Positions 7,530 to 19,342 of a stretch of 64,000 nt of DNA are shown here, piece after piece. Below the pieces are notes generated by a model. The model was not told the DNA's origin. It was given only the letters and a program-made list of their open reading frames with translations, and did no database searches. The translations under genes and the position numbers were made by a program. This DNA comes from Streptococcaceae bacterium (GTDB taxonomy: Bacteria; Bacillota; Bacilli; Lactobacillales; Streptococcaceae), in contig JAISYQ010000014.1 of assembly GCA_031269775.1 (NCBI GenBank), positions 1 to 64,000 of the forward strand. The letters are read 5' to 3'. Numbering within the stretch: the first letter of the stretch is position 1; each line of letters begins with the position of its first letter.

Positions 7530-8213
7530 TATTTTTCCCTAGCCTTTCTTTTAAAAATTTCTTCTAAAGATGGTGTTTCTTGGCTAAAGATAGGCGCATA
7601 GCTGCCATAAGAGGCTCTTTTAAAAATTATTTTCCCTATTTTAGGATTAGATAAATCAACTTCCAATCGTCCATCTGCATGTCTTTTTACTTTTTTAACG
7701 CCATCGATTGTTTAAAGCTTTTCTGCAGTCAATTCACTTTTAATAAACAATTTCGTCAAACCAAAACTTTCACGAATTTCATGAATTTTACCATTTAGCA
7801 CGCTTTTTTCATCTTTAAGCATTATTAGATTTTCCGCCAATTTTTCCACATTTGCCATATTATGATTAGAAAAAATGATACAAGCTCCCTTTTTCTTTAA
7901 TTCAAGGATAGCCTCTTCTAATAAACTTACATTAACAAGGATCTAAACCAGAAAATGGTTCATCCAAAATAATAAACTTGGGTTCATGAATAAACGTTAC
8001 AATTAACTGGACTTTTTGCTGATTACCTTTTGAAAGCGTTTTTACTTTTGTTTTTCTGTTTCCTTTTACATCAAATCTTTTAAGCCATTCATCGGTTTTT
8101 GGTGAAATTTCTACGGGATCTTTTCCGCGTAATTCTACAAAATACAACACAGGTAAATAACCTACTTTATCATAAGTTGATTCAACAATTTTTTGCTCGA
8201 TTTCAGCATTCAT
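7530..8213 (-). pseudogene. ABC transporter ATPase (NatA-like), truncated and frameshifted
   Basis: The frame at 7932-8213 contains the signature-like VKTLSKGNQQKVQLIVTF and Walker B FIILDEPFSGLD, but there is no Walker A and no N-terminal half. After a frame change the protein continues leftwards as VNVSLLEEAILELKKKGACI and IIFSNHNMANVEKLAE (H-loop region) and ends near SLEEIFKRKAREK. At least one stop (after TAEKL) interrupts the tail. It resembles ATPases of ABC-2 exporters such as NatA. Its natural partner may be the broken permease at 10729-11410; the pieces of another exporter lie between them. Confidence 0.75.
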
Positions 8214-8229
8214 CTGAGCACGCTTTTCT

Positions 8230-8520
8230 TCTTTAAACTCAGGTGTTTTATCGACTTGCTGAGTATAGAAATGTAGATGGAGTACAAAGAATTATCGGCA
8301 TTGATTTTTGTATCATTTGTTAATGCTTGTTGCAGCTGTTGGTATTCTTGTTTTTTCTTTTCATTTTTTTGAATCTCATCATTGATTGTCTGTTTCTCTT
8401 TGGTAAGATTTATATTTTGCTGATTTAAAGCTGTATTTTCATCGATATTTTCCTTTTGTACATTTTTTAATCTAGCTAAAATTCTTCCAGCTGTTGATAA
8501 TATCCAAATTCATCTTTTTT
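8230..8520 (-). pseudogene. Coiled-coil fragment, probable exporter accessory (ComB/HlyD-like)
   Basis: Downstream of the broken C39 exporter, the minus strand reads GRILARLKNVQKENIDENTA and IQKNEKKKQEYQQLQQAL, a charged, Gln-rich heptad pattern like the periplasmic-adaptor-type coiled coil of ComB/BlpB/LcnD accessory proteins that usually follow such exporters. Both ends are missing and there is no start codon. The identification rests on position and composition, so it is moderate to weak. Confidence 0.45.
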
Positions 8521-10631
8521 TTAAAAATTTGCCTTTTTTGTGTAATTCCGTCCTTTAATTTTTCCATCTTGAGCGCTTTTAGCAATATTTAAACGATGAG
8601 CCACAAAGATTAATGTCTTTTTTGGCAGAGCTAATAGCTTTTCAAGAATTTTTTGCTCTGTTAAAACATCCAAACTGCTGGTGGATTCATCAAAAATCAA
8701 TACCGAGACTTTTGTCAACAGCGATCTAGCAATCGCAATCCTCTGCATTTGCCCGAGAGATAAGGCTGTTTCTTCAGCGCTTAATTTTGTTTGGAAATTT
8801 AGCGGCGAATGTTCAATATCTTCTCTAATTTGTGTTAATTCAACTGCTTGAAAGATTTCTTCCTGCGTAGTTTCCTCACTTGCTTCAAAGGTTAAATTTT
8901 TCAAAATTGTGCCTGAAAAGATATATGGCTTTTGGGGAAGATATTGAATTTTTCTTCTTAAAATCTTTTTATCCGTTTGTTGAATATCAATTCCATCAAG
9001 CATAATTTCCCCAGAGCCTGGTTGATAAAAGTTTATTATTAATTTCAGCAAACTTGTTTTATTAGAATCGCTCTTGCCCACAATACTGATTTTTTCACCG
9101 GCTTGAATTTTCAAATTTATCTTAGATAGGATTTGCTGAGTATGATCATACTGATAGTCAACATCTTTTAATTCAATCGTCTTAAATTTTTTAGAATTAA
9201 ATGAAAAATTCGCTTTCGTATTTGTAAACTCAGAAGAAACAACAAAAACTTCTTGCAAGTGATGATTGGCAACGCGCGCCTTTTACAATTTTGACTGCAG
9301 ACATACAATGCTCTCCAGAGTATTCACAAAATAACTTAATAAAACATTATATGTAATCAACTGTCCTAAACTTATCTTTCCCTTCATCACTAAAGTAGAA
9401 CCAAACCATAAAATAAAAACATTTAAAACTAAGTGAATTCCCTGCTTCAGACCTTCTTGTAAGATAGAAATTTTTGTAAAAGCAAAAGATTTTCTTAAAA
9501 AACGTACAAACTCGCGATCAATTTTTTGATAACATTCTTCCTCGCTAGCTAACGATTTAATCGTTTCCATTCCGTTAATGTCTTCAGTAATTACTGAGCT
9601 TAGCAAGTGCATTTGCTTGCATCGTTTCATGATTTAAACGATTGAAGGGTCTGATAAATAAAAAAACAATTAATAAATACACAGGAATGGCTGCCAATGT
9701 TATATAGAAATAGATTGATATTTTGCGCTAAAAGCGCTGCACCGACCACAAGCAAAATACTTACATCCAAAAAAAGAGATAGAATAGTACTGGCCAAGGC
9801 ATCAATAATCAAGTTAACATCAGTAAAACGAGAAACAATCTCTCCAACTCTTCTAGTCGCAAAAAAAGAAAGTGGCAGATTAAAAATGTGCTGAATATAA
9901 GACAGATTAATTTTAATCGACAAACGCTGTCCTAAAATGCTCAGCAAATAATTTTGAGCAAAATTAACAATTTGTTAAATCACATATACAACGATCAAAC
10001 CAAAAGAAATAAAGCCCAGTGTTGTTTGCAGTTGATTTGGTAGATAATTATCAATCACTTCTTGTAAATAAAAAGAGCCTAAAATATTAATAATTGTCAC
10101 TAAAAAAGATGCTGTCACAATATTAAAAATCAAGCTTTTTTGTTTTAGCAGTAAAGGATAAAAACTAGCTAGTTCTGAGGTATCTTCTTTTTGTGGTGAA
10201 TAATTCGGCGTTGGTGTAATAACAAGAGCAACCCCAGTCCATTCATTTACAAAATCTTTAATCGCAATTTTTTGAATCTCTACTTTTTCATTGGGATCTG
10301 CAACCCATAACTTTCCTTTGCTGGCCTTATAAATAACCACATAATGTAATAAATTTCCTTCTTTTTGCACATGTAAAATAAGTGGATATGGAACATCTTC
10401 CATTACAAATAAACTCTCATCTGCAGCAAAGGCCTTTGTATGAAAATAAAAGACTTTTGCCGCTTCCATCAATCCTAAAGCTGAAGTTCCGTCAACTGTG
10501 GTTTTGGCCAATTCACGAATTCTTGCTAAAGAAACTCTTGACCCATAAAATTGCAAAACCATAGATAGCGCTGCTGCTCAATCCTTCTCATCTACTTGTG
10601 CAATATAAAGATATCGATGAAAAAAATCCAT
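8521..10631 (-). pseudogene. C39-peptidase ABC exporter for bacteriocin/pheromone, inactivated
   Basis: From the ATG at 10631 (GGAAGAG upstream) the frame reads MDFFHRYLYIAQVDEKD, then TGA, then AAALSMVLQFYGSRVSLARI. In ComA/LagD-type exporters this place reads DEKDCGAAAL, where Cys is the protease nucleophile; loss of three bases (TGG) would give exactly the observed TGA and remove Cys-Gly. The catalytic His (LLHYVVIY) and Asp (VADPN) remain. After the C39 domain come the membrane domain in three pieces (9975-10562, 9627-9947, 9283-9630) and the ATPase (8521-9258; degenerate Walker A VGKSDSNKTS, signature LSLGQMQRIAIARSL, Walker B VLIFDES). Breaks lie near 9960 and 9270. It once cut double-glycine leaders and exported the peptide. 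Confidence 0.88.
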
Positions 10632-10728
10632 GAATCTCTTCCAATCTAAAATTTTTTAAATTATTATATTTTTTCGTAAAAACACTTCCATTAAAAAATT
10701 TTTCCACAAGGAAAAAAATGATTTATTT

Positions 10729-11410
10729 TCATAAAATAAAATATTTCGTTGATATATTTTGGCAGAACCTCGCAGTAGCCAAAAAACAGCTAGCACTGAA
10801 AGCAAGAAAGAAAGCTACCATCACACTACTTGCTGAAACAATAAAAAGAAAAATACTGATTTGTAAAGAAATAAAATCGATATCTTTTTCGTTTTTGATA
10901 ATGATACCAGTAAGTGCATAAAGAAATAAAAAAGCCATAATTCCTAAAAAAATTAGTAAAAAAGTTCCTAGAGATGCTCCTGAAAAAATTTTTTGCCAAG
11001 GAATTTGGTGAGAAGATCCTGCGAGTTTAAATTTAGCAATTATCGACGTTGTGACTAAAAAGACCAAAAATTGTGTAAGCCAAACTAAACTAACTCCAAG
11101 TAATTTTCCATAAAGTAGGTTTTTGCTTTAACACTTGAAAGGATAACCTCTGTGATATAATTTCCTTTTTCATCAGCAACCTTTTATAATAAAATTCCGC
11201 AATTTATAAGACAATTGACAGAAGAATTGCGATGGTGATCAAACGGATATTTTCCATATAAAATTTCATATTATTTTGTGAAATGAAAAAATGACCAATA
11301 GTACTACTAAAGAAAGGACCTATGAAAAGTAATGAGGAAAGCAAAAATAATGGATTTTTTATTATTTTAAAGTAAGTTTTTTTGGCTACTAATTTTAGTT
11401 TATCGTTCAT
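10729..11410 (-). pseudogene. ABC-2 type permease (NatB-like), broken
   Basis: The N-terminus (MNDKLKLVAKKTYFKIIKNP, first transmembrane helix) starts at 11410. Then, after a gap, come KGNYITEVILSSVKAKTYFM and LLGVSLVWLTQFLVFLVTTS in a second frame and more hydrophobic helices to 10729. This is the order of NatB-type sodium or drug exporter permeases, whose family motif is ExILSSVSxxxxxxGK. A large internal piece and the C-terminus are missing. It lies upstream, in transcription direction, of the exporter and ATPase remnants. Confidence 0.7.
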
Positions 11411-15744: not shown

Positions 15745-16986
15745 GTGAAGGTTCCAAAACCAGATAAAAAAGCATCTAAAAAAGCGATTCGTGAATTTTT
15801 AATGCGTGTTTTTATTGTTTTTTTTATGTTAACTGGAGCGGGAGTTACGGCATATCCTTTTGTTGTCAATGCTTTGAATGATAGCATTGGAAAAGCAGTA
15901 ATTAATCGTTATCAATCTAAAGAAAATAAAGAGTTTCGCAAGAAGCAAGCAAAAAAATTAAAAGAGATGAACCTGGCAGAAAAACAAAAAAGTAAGGCAT
16001 TAAAGGATCCATTTTCACAAGCAAGTTTGGATAAAGCAAATTTTGATGCCTTCCATCCTAATTTTTATGCACAACATACCATTGCAGTAATTTATATCCC
16101 AAAAATTAGTGTAGGTCTTCCAGTATTTGATAGTACAGATGAACGTTTTCTCTCACAAGGAGCAACTTGGATGTCGGATACTAGTTTTCCTGATGGCGGA
16201 AAAGGAGAGCATTCAATCATTACTGCACATCGCGGTTTGCCAACAGCGGAATTATTTACAGACTTACCAAAGCTAGTTAATGGGGATATTTTTATTATTA
16301 AACAAGATGATAACTATTTGGCTTATGAAGTATTTGAAAAGAAAACAGTAAAGCCAGAAGAGACAGGAATTTTGAATCTTAAGAGTGATAAAGATTTGGT
16401 AACATTAGTAACTTGTACTCCATATATGATTAATACTCATCGACTTTTGGTGACAGGAGAAAGAGTGCCTTTTACGCCCAATATGTTTAAAGAGATTAAC
16501 GAAATTGCTAAAGCAAAGAAAAATAAAAATATCAAAGTTTATGCTGCGCTATCTTCAGCAGTAGGTGGAGTATTTATGCTTTTGCGTTTCTTTTGGGTAA
16601 GTATGCAATTAAAACGCAGACGTTATAATTTACGTTTTCGTGTGATGGATAGTACAGGAAAAAAAGGTTTAACACAAGCCAAATATCAATTGTTTGGAGC
16701 CAATGGTAAAACACCATTATCTAAAAATGGTCAGTTGTTACTTGCATCACCTAATCGAAATGGTGAAGTTGTATTTACCGGCCTTCCTGGAGGAAAATAT
16801 ATTATTAAGCAAGTAGAGACTCCTAAAGGATATCGCGTACTTAATAAAGTAAAATTTAAAATGCATAGTATTAAAGATCCTTTTTTTTCTGCTTCAATTA
16901 TTCATCGTGTTTTAAACAAATTTAATTGGCAACAGTTAAAAGGCAAAGAATTGGTGATTATTAATCCGTTAAAAAATAAAAATTAG
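15745..16986 (+). CDS. srtC: Class C sortase with C-terminal CnaB/SpaA-like domain
   Basis: A 413-residue pilin-type sortase. Order: short basic N-terminus, transmembrane helix about 20-42, lid motif Asp88-Pro89-Phe90, catalytic domain with His162 (TAHRG), Cys224 (TLVTCTPY) and Arg233 (THRLLVTGER), second transmembrane helix about 264-287, KRRR at 290-293. Class C sortases normally end shortly after the second helix; here about 115 residues follow, containing AKYQLFGANGKTPLSKNG and GEVVFTGLPGGKYIIKQ then ETPKGY, the pattern of CnaB/SpaA (prealbumin-like) repeats. The GTG start has AGAAGGGA upstream. Such enzymes join pilin subunits by isopeptide bonds, but no pilin gene is in the window. A related sortase follows 21 bases later. 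Confidence 0.92.
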   Translation: MKVPKPDKKASKKAIREFLMRVFIVFFMLTGAGVTAYPFVVNALNDSIGKAVINRYQSKENKEFRKKQAKKLKEMNLAEKQKSKALKDPFSQASLDKANFDAFHPNFYAQHTIAVIYIPKISVGLPVFDSTDERFLSQGATWMSDTSFPDGGKGEHSIITAHRGLPTAELFTDLPKLVNGDIFIIKQDDNYLAYEVFEKKTVKPEETGILNLKSDKDLVTLVTCTPYMINTHRLLVTGERVPFTPNMFKEINEIAKAKKNKNIKVYAALSSAVGGVFMLLRFFWVSMQLKRRRYNLRFRVMDSTGKKGLTQAKYQLFGANGKTPLSKNGQLLLASPNRNGEVVFTGLPGGKYIIKQVETPKGYRVLNKVKFKMHSIKDPFFSASIIHRVLNKFNWQQLKGKELVIINPLKNKN

Positions 16987-17007
16987 GAAAGGATAGATAG
17001 ATTTTTT

Positions 17008-18222
17008 ATGACCAAAATGCCAAAAGAAAAAAAATGGGCAATTCCTCAATTTGTTTTTAAAATATTAGCCGTTTTTATTTTTTTGGGAGGAGCACTTACT
17101 ACTGCTTATCCTCTTTATTGTGATGTATTAAATGATGCTTTAGCTAATAAAGTAAATGATGAGTATCATTCTAAAGAAAATGAAAAATTTCGTAAAGAGC
17201 AAAATAAAAAATTGCGCTCTCAACATCAAAGACAAGAAGCTTTAAAGGATCCATTTTCAAATGTTTCTTTACAAAATGCAAAAGATCTAGCTAGTAATCC
17301 GAAAACAGAATTTTTAGTAAAACATACGATTGGATTTATTTATATTCCAAAAATTGATCAGAAATTACCGATTTTTGATACGATCAATGATACATTTATG
17401 GATTGCGGGGCAACGTGGTTTTCAAAAAGTAATTTTCCCGGTAGTGGAAAGGGAGGGCATACTGTTATTACAGCGCATCGCGGTTTGCCTACGGCAACTT
17501 TATTTACTGATTTAGATAAGTTAAAAAATGGTGATAAGTTTATTGTTGAAGTGGATGAAAAGTATTTAGCTTATGAAGTTTATGCACGCCATGTGGTTTT
17601 ACCAGATGATTTAAGTAAATTAGATCCTATTGATGAACAGGATACAGTAACTCTTTTAACTTGTACGCCATATATGATCAATTCTCATCGTTTATTAGTG
17701 GTTGGTAAACGTATTTCATTTACACCGTCAATGTATGAAGATATGAGATCAATTAAATCAGCTCAAAAGAAAAAGATTGCAAAATTAGTAATAGGACTTT
17801 CTGCAGCTGGAGTACTTGCTGTCTTTCTTTCTTATTTTTCTTATCTTCGTTTAAAACATGCACGTAGTTTATATAATTTGAATTTTAGAGTTTTGGGTGA
17901 AGGAGGTCAACCTGCAGTTGGCACTTGCTATCAATTATTTGATCGAAGAGGAAAAAAGCCTAAACGTAAGAATGGTAAATTAATAATTAGTGAGATAAAT
18001 CCTGCGGATGGCACAGTTTCTTTTCAAAAGATTCCAGGTGTCTCATTAAAGATAAAGCAAATTTCTGATAACAACCAATATCAAAAAATGCCTGATATGC
18101 GAATTGGAATTTTAAAAAGAAAGGCTAAAGAATTTACTTTGAAGATAAAGAAACGTAAATTAAAAGGAAAATTAGAAAAAAATGATAAAGATTATACGAT
18201 TTATTTGCAAAAGAAAGGATAA
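17008..18222 (+). CDS. srtC: Second class C sortase with C-terminal CnaB-like domain
   Basis: A 404-residue paralogue of the upstream gene with the same plan: membrane helix about 15-37, lid Asp81-Pro82-Phe83, His157, Cys219 (TLLTCTPY), Arg228, second helix about 258-281, then TCYQLFDRRGKKPKRKNGKL and GTVSFQKIPGVSLKIKQI. The extra domain is less CnaB-like than in the first gene (no ETPxGY) and more basic, ending with many Lys. Two paralogous sortases in tandem usually mean two linked pilus polymerisation steps, but substrates are not adjacent. The ATG has AGGAAAGGA upstream at a rather long spacing. Confidence 0.9.
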   Translation: MTKMPKEKKWAIPQFVFKILAVFIFLGGALTTAYPLYCDVLNDALANKVNDEYHSKENEKFRKEQNKKLRSQHQRQEALKDPFSNVSLQNAKDLASNPKTEFLVKHTIGFIYIPKIDQKLPIFDTINDTFMDCGATWFSKSNFPGSGKGGHTVITAHRGLPTATLFTDLDKLKNGDKFIVEVDEKYLAYEVYARHVVLPDDLSKLDPIDEQDTVTLLTCTPYMINSHRLLVVGKRISFTPSMYEDMRSIKSAQKKKIAKLVIGLSAAGVLAVFLSYFSYLRLKHARSLYNLNFRVLGEGGQPAVGTCYQLFDRRGKKPKRKNGKLIISEINPADGTVSFQKIPGVSLKIKQISDNNQYQKMPDMRIGILKRKAKEFTLKIKKRKLKGKLEKNDKDYTIYLQKKG

Positions 18223-18425: not shown

Positions 18426-19342
18426 TTACTCTCTTTTTTCTTGTCTACGCTGAATATCTTTTATAAGAACTTCATCATAGTAACTTTGAAATTGCTTTAC
18501 CAACTCATCATAGTTGCGTAGTAATAAAAAATTGATTACGTTACTCATCACTTTTCGACCATTATCTTTGTGCCCAGTTATAAACATATATAAACCTTTC
18601 AGAAAATCTAAAGTGCATTCTTCTCGCATGCAATTATCTCGTTCTTCTACAATTAATCTATATGCAAGTTCAAAGAAATCATTAAAATCATCAAAATAGT
18701 TATGCTGAAGACAAGGATACATTACGTTAATTAACGTGATTATAAGAAGTCTCTTTCGATCTCTAGTGTCACAAAAAATTTCTTTGTGATTAATGATATT
18801 TCGCATTAACGCACAACTAAGATCAATCTTTAAAACATGAGCAACATTGCAAAACAGTGATAATTCATAATAGGACCACTGAGTTGTTTTAAACAGATAA
18901 TTAGAGGCATTTTGAAAAACATCTTCTGAAATAGGAAAGTTGTGATCTAAATCATGAATCATGGCAGAAAGCATCAAAATCGTTAAACAGCTACCTATTC
19001 TGGATTTTGTCGTTCTCTTTTCTTTTTTAATAATTCTTTTAATTTATCAATCTTTTTGTCATTATAGTATATATAAACATCTTTAAAAAATTGCTCATTA
19101 GGGTCAGCTTGATAATTCTTAGCTATTGAATCAATTTCTTCTAGAGGTAAGTGAATTCTTTGAGCTAGGGCAAGAGAAGCAGCATATTCTGACTGTATTT
19201 TTCCATTTTTAAATTGAGATAGAATTCTTTTGTCACATATGCCTTCGGATACCTCTTCTGCATTAAGAGCTCTTAATTTTCTGTGTTTTTGCAACATCTT
19301 CCCAATTTTTGATTGTAAATCTTGAAAGTTATTTTGAACCAT
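18426..19342 (-). pseudogene. Rgg/MutR-family regulator split by a single-base frameshift
   Basis: The first frame (19342-18995) holds an N-terminal HTH (SKIGKMLQKHRKLRALNAEE, ICDKRILSQFKNGKIQSEYA) and the linker; the second (18977-18426) is the all-helical C-terminal Rgg domain (ASNYLFKTTQWSYYELSLF, LIITLINVMYPCLQHN). Reading frames join if one A is added to the AAAA run at 19005-19008 (TTTT on the plus strand): the text then runs RERQKSRIGSCLTILMLSAM without a stop and gives about 305 residues, the usual Rgg length. Rgg proteins are RRNPP-type receptors for small peptides. The start ATG has AAGGAGCG upstream. A peptide gene lies upstream in the same direction. It could be a real mutation, a phase switch or a sequencing error. 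Confidence 0.85.

Follow-up and report, generated by a model that had tools for sequence, protein, structure and literature searches.

Introduction

Little is understood about how class C sortases come to be concentrated at the sites where pilins emerge. In the window analysed here (64,000 nucleotides of DNA from a Streptococcaceae bacterium, positions 1 to 64,000 of contig JAISYQ010000014.1 in assembly GCA_031269775.1), two adjacent genes for such enzymes encode proteins that continue for about 120-130 residues past their second membrane helix. This additional tail appears to derive from CnaB, a fold that otherwise functions outside the cell. The question raised by the locus is on which side of the membrane the tail lies and what a domain of this kind could do in a pilus sortase.

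Two Tandem Class C Sortases with Intact Catalytic Cores

The first sortase (P1, 15745-16986, plus strand) has 413 amino acids and a GTG start, and the second (P2, 17008-18222, plus strand), which has 404 amino acids and an ATG start, follows after a gap of 21 bases. Both match the NCBIfam class_C_sortase model NF033745 (224.8 bits for P1 and 207.5 bits for P2, cut-off 160), and P1 also matches PF04203. In P1, the sequence places membrane helix 1 at about residues 20-40 (15802-15864), whose outer end contains the Y-P motif of class C sortases (Y37-P38), both residues being invariant in a 35-row alignment of tailed relatives. The lid motif DPF, whose columns are nearly invariant among relatives, occupies residues 88-90 (16006-16014), and the catalytic barrel extends over residues 112-245 (16078-16479) according to PF04203, the alignment and superposition of the AlphaFold2 (AF2) model. 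The same features are found in P2, with DPF at residues 81-83 (17248-17256) and the barrel at about residues 107-236 (17326-17715; profile, alignment and AF2). The catalytic residues H162/C224/R233 of P1 and H157/C219/R228 of P2 are invariant in the 35-row alignment, and both proteins have the TLxTC motif together with this His/Cys/Arg set. Among solved class C sortases, the structure closest to the P1 model is 7cg9 (Z 22.8, rmsd 3.0 over 188 residues). By sequence, P1 and P2 are thus class C (pilus) sortases whose catalytic set is intact and which have a DPF lid and two predicted membrane helices, as an earlier note on this DNA had described them.

The core of membrane helix 2 lies at residues 267-285 in P1 (16543-16599; hydropathy) and at residues 257-275 in P2 (17776-17832), within continuous AF2 helices of about 47 residues (245-291 and 240-286, respectively). 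The P1 helix is real but weak, with a Kyte-Doolittle value of 1.68 over 19 residues compared to a mean of 2.57 in 57 tailed sortases, and it contains an Arg; the corresponding value in P2 is 2.13. In P1, the helix is followed by the basic cluster KRRR (residues 290-293, 16612-16623), with a net charge of +6 over the next 15 residues.

A Tail Derived from CnaB Domains

The tail of P1 comprises residues 294-413 (16624-16983; pI about 10.4, net charge +15) and that of P2 residues 281-404 (17848-18219; pI about 10.3, net charge +19). The earlier note had recognised a SpaA/CnaB pattern that was clear in the first protein and drifted in the second, and the domain and profile searches bear this out. 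Pfam SpaA (PF17802) matches P1 residues 300-372 with 35.4 bits (cut-off 23.1, E 1.2e-8), and hhalign relates the P1 tail to pilin CnaB domains at 97.4% (E 1.2e-11). The P2 tail has no PF17802 or other Pfam match at E ≤ 1, yet hhalign identifies it as a homologue of the P1 tail (98.5%, E 1.9e-15), a family profile covers it, and its own comparison with pilins gives a weak 72%. In the wider set of 35 tailed proteins, SpaA is detected in 21 at E ≤ 0.01. When a profile of 18 tails was compared with the PDB, the best matches were the pilin CnaB domains of GBS52 (3phs, E 4.9e-10) and RrgC (4oq1, E 3e-8). Judged by sequence homology, the tail is CnaB-derived. The AF2 models agree with a beta-rich fold in both proteins, with strands at residues 293-385 in P1 (pLDDT mostly 86-91, falling below 50 for residues 395-413) and 288-400 in P2. 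Foldseek and VIA-align searches with the full-length AF2 models returned lists filled by matches to the sortase barrel, and no CnaB entry was among the matches listed.

A Lys/Glu/Asn isopeptide set is typical of pilin CnaB domains. In the tails, the corresponding positions were located by their spacing from a conserved F/Y, an alignment of tails and pilins by MAFFT being unusable for this purpose since it set the pilin Lys column against the KRR near the membrane in the tails. The P1 tail has Val/Met at the Lys position, P2 has no Lys there, and both have Gln at the Glu position. Across 66 tails, a Lys near the right spacing occurs in nine and a Glu in ten, and none has both; the pilin reference set has Lys and Glu in 40 of 40 by construction, as it was chosen by a pattern requiring these two residues. 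Having lost the Lys and Glu of the isopeptide set, the tail cannot be a classical self-crosslinking pilin module.

Predicted Topology and Charge

Charges flanking the membrane helices were surveyed in 57 dereplicated tailed sortases and 55 untailed class C sortases. The 15 residues after helix 2 have a net charge of +2 or more in 56 of the 57 tailed proteins (mean +3.7), and the untailed enzymes have the same basic cluster at their C-terminus (mean +5.0). Since the cluster is common to both groups at the same place, the tail starts where the normal cytoplasmic stub sits. The tails themselves are strongly basic (mean pI 9.8 and net charge +10, n = 57), in contrast to the C-terminal domains of pilins (mean pI 5.5 and net charge -4.6, n = 98), a comparison set that consists of the 110 residues before LPXTG signals in the same set of loci and includes some proline-rich stalks besides CnaB domains. 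The N-terminus before helix 1 of tailed sortases is also basic (+4.2). So is the loop before helix 2 (mean +2.3), which makes the charge contrast across this helix weaker in tailed than in untailed sortases; the charge after the helix exceeds that before it in 36 of 57 and 49 of 55 proteins, respectively.

The charge and residue-loss signals fit the prediction that the tail of P1 and P2 is cytoplasmic and no longer self-crosslinking. The earlier note had placed the domain in the cytoplasm, which these signals support as a prediction, and had named, as grounds against its view, a large number of known sortases sharing the tail together with proof that it lies outside. Sortases with the same tail are indeed numerous (in at least 42 genomes, see below); a literature search found neither a topology or localisation experiment on any tailed sortase nor proof of an outside position, and the signals point inside.

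Distribution and Evolution

Among 395 Lactobacillales genomes, 90 contain matches to the tail profile. In at least 42 genomes besides the source genome, belonging to six families, the match lies in a sortase-sized frame (about 380-460 amino acids), many of these genomes having two such genes in tandem, and the remaining matches are mostly in long frames of pilins or adhesins. The best 80 matches include tailed enzymes from Enterococcus, Lactococcus, Leuconostoc, Ligilactobacillus, Lacticaseibacillus, Secundilactobacillus, Lapidilactobacillus and Vagococcus, whereas in the same scan the enzymes of Lachnospiraceae, Streptococcus suis and Actinomyces have just a short basic stub at the C-terminus. 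The possibility that the tailed architecture is unique to this genome was rejected by the order-wide survey of 395 genomes, and the impression of the earlier note that the tail is unusual gives way to a feature that is common in class C sortases of Lactobacillales. In the named collection, the best match is an 84%-identical orthologue from a metagenome-assembled genome, Streptococcaceae bacterium isolate Cc175_bin59; isolate codes of this type presumably denote termite guts.

A near-identical tailed tandem pair (404 and 385 amino acids) with near-identical scores recurs in G063, G132, G149, G206, G227 and G412, which belong to several families, and is consistent with a bee-type cluster moving on conjugative plasmids. 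In addition, such a tail may be present in the SrtC of Lactococcus lactis IL1403, a protein of 432 residues with its catalytic Cys at position 225 (PMC3516528), which was not identified among nine related genomes. Searches for literature on sortases with a CnaB or prealbumin tail or on class C sortase topology, in which few subscription papers were covered, found no discussion of the tail. It is therefore a widespread and apparently undiscussed feature of the pilus sortases of lactic acid bacteria, of which the P1/P2 pair is a new instance, and it may have escaped notice because these proteins are catalogued just as class C sortases.

On the sortase tree, P1 and P2 are sisters (support 100/90) and stand apart from both branches that hold the tandem pairs of the pBEE99 bee locus and plasmid pSH74. 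The tree thus places the P1/P2 duplication within their own Streptococcaceae lineage, and an origin from the same duplication as the bee/pSH74 pairs was rejected. About ten changes in the presence of the tail are placed on the tree, and enzymes with short tails branch from within groups of tailed ones. Having been gained or lost repeatedly, tails are dispensable in some pili.

Full-length tails are present in five congeneric genomes. The dN/dS values of both tails between orthologue pairs are mostly 0.09-0.2 (0.29 for the most distant P1 pair), and those of the catalytic core are 0.03-0.15, indicating that purifying selection is stronger on the core than on the tails. Identity to the most distant congener is 57-58% in the tails versus 77-79% in the core. 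That the tail is a chance extension of the reading frame or a pseudogene was rejected on the basis of selection and conservation.

Genome Context

The source genome (1.2 Mb in 32 contigs) has four sortase genes. Class C sortases are usually encoded beside their own pilin genes, a feature that is not strictly defining; P1 and P2 lie on contig C26 between unrelated genes and not beside pilin genes. Pilin-like genes with LPXTG signals are found on contig C7, which encodes a 672-aa GramPos_pilinD1/SpaA protein and a 615-aa SpaA protein, and on contig C9 (731 aa), and no sortase was detected near any of them. Similarly, no pilin gene stands beside the sortases in the 84%-identical relative (L073), in which the upstream span is shorter than 1 kb. 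Since the pilin genes lie elsewhere in the genome, P1 and P2 probably act on them in trans.

Several other features of these regions were observed. Between the two LPXTG pilin genes of C7, an 1827-aa Big_2 protein (L009, 6737-12220) ends without a recognisable LPXTG signal, and a short regulator-like fragment (L009, 3200-3529) is located upstream of the same genes. A longer regulator of Rgg type adjoins the sortases in the window (18426-19342, minus strand) and is split into two ORFs of 115 and 183 amino acids, the latter matching Rgg_C (PF21259), which reflects either a pseudogene or an assembly error. At 7932-11067 of the window (minus strand), several short ORFs look like the fragments of a single peptidase/ABC exporter gene of bacteriocin or competence-peptide type. 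Finally, a small sortase (220 aa; L011, 4144-5369) directly follows a 191-aa secreted-looking protein that lacks a Pfam match, and the two are possibly a dedicated enzyme-substrate pair.

A Possible Role of the Tail

A short cationic cytoplasmic tail has been reported to place enterococcal sortases at assembly foci, and in Enterococcus faecalis the distribution of the sortases was altered and pili were abolished (Kline 2009, as cited in PMC4829219; see also PMC3516528). According to PMC3493515, the C-terminal membrane domain is required for pilus polymerisation by class C sortases. On this basis, we propose that P1 and P2 polymerise pilins with the N-terminus inside, the catalytic barrel outside, and helix 2 returning the chain to the cytoplasm, where the strongly basic, beta-rich tail without isopeptide residues would be a larger counterpart of the short cationic tail found in other class C sortases. 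As it starts at the position of the stub and is itself strongly basic, the tail likely does the job of the stub with a larger surface, and it would keep the sortase at an assembly focus, associated with anionic lipid or with Sec, at which pilin precursors emerge. Taken as a whole (sortases duplicated within the lineage, polymerising pilins, and localised at an assembly focus by a cytoplasmic, cationic, CnaB-derived tail), this explanation seems to us about evenly poised between right and wrong. The weak charge contrast across helix 2, the only moderately hydrophobic, Arg-containing helix 2 of P1, and the repeated gain or loss of tails all speak against it.

The main rival to localisation is that the cytoplasmic tail, a former pilin domain, serves as a specific docking module, whose partner could be the cytoplasmic end of a pilin precursor, the Sec translocase or another sortase, so that it would recruit substrate or pair the two enzymes. 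Glycines and an LPG turn are conserved in the tails across distant genera; together with the purifying selection and the PDB matches to the CnaB domains of GBS52 and RrgC, they favour docking, as does the frequent presence of tails in both members of tandem pairs. Speaking against the localisation proposal, too, is that a folded domain appears to exceed what a mere patch of charge would require; the conservation of the glycines and of the LPG turn points to a specific surface. However, the tails diverge faster than the core, and their repeated gain or loss in relatives fits poorly with docking, which we consider possible but rather unlikely. A regulatory or substrate-docking role, as raised by the earlier note, is possible; given the published work on cationic tails, localisation at assembly sites is the better-grounded first guess. 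A more general evolutionary scenario would accommodate both functions: a pilin CnaB domain was captured by the pilus sortases of Lactobacillales, moved inside, lost its self-crosslinking, and now acts as a specific module for docking or localisation by which the pilus assembly site is organised. We put this scenario forward tentatively, and it is somewhat less probable than the localisation proposal. If true, a pilin fold known from exported proteins would be used inside the cell.

For the tail to lie outside, helix 2 would have to stop short of crossing the membrane, or the protein would need the opposite topology; the CnaB domain could then work like its counterparts in pilins, perhaps by holding the base of the growing pilus. 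This position would agree with the usual place of such folds and with the weak, Arg-containing helix 2 of P1. It is nevertheless improbable, considering the basic cluster after helix 2 in nearly all tailed sortases, the mean hydropathy of 2.57 of this helix among them, the cationic charge of the tails as opposed to acidic exported domains, the loss of isopeptide residues, and the KR stub that terminates this helix in class C sortases lacking a tail. A decaying, functionless relic of a gene fusion, to which the lost isopeptide residues, the drift of P2 and the patchy presence of tails might point, is very unlikely in view of dN/dS values of mostly about 0.1-0.2 in both tails and of the full-length tails in congeneric and many other genomes.

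Comparison with Known Systems

The CnaB domains of pilins such as GBS52 and RrgC show detectable sequence homology to the tail profile. Pilin domains are exported and as a rule acidic; they lie ahead of an LPXTG signal, and often contain isopeptide bonds. The sortase tail, in contrast, comes after a membrane helix, has a cationic charge, and is missing the Lys and Glu of the isopeptide set. Short-stub class C sortases such as those of group B Streptococcus, Streptococcus suis and Lachnospiraceae share with P1 and P2 the barrel, the lid, the two helices and the basic residues after helix 2, but have no CnaB-like domain after the stub.

The closest counterparts are two plasmid-borne tandem pairs of class C sortases with homologous tails, both of which are recognised by a tail model built only from the genus of the window. 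In the bee locus of pBEE99 (Enterococcus faecalis), the sortases have 398 and 373 amino acids; unlike P1 and P2, they form one gene cluster with pilins on a conjugative plasmid, and their tails score below the Pfam SpaA cut-off. In pSH74 of Lactococcus lactis NCDO712, SrtC1 and SrtC2 are detected by the same model in a four-sequence search (domain E 1e-13 and 1.1e-5) and, in contrast to P1 and P2, adjoin pilin genes in the cluster spaCB-spaA-srtC1-srtC2. This cluster gave rise to pilus-like structures in L. lactis when overexpressed from a multicopy plasmid, and the accessible text of that report makes no remark on the tail of SrtC1 or SrtC2 (PMC5152845). Since the pSH74 cluster makes pili, a cluster with two tailed sortases can assemble them, and a widespread, conserved extra domain, predicted to lie on the inner face of the membrane, is present in the sortases of a cluster that builds pili in a laboratory Lactococcus, where it offers a direct genetic handle on how class C sortases are concentrated.
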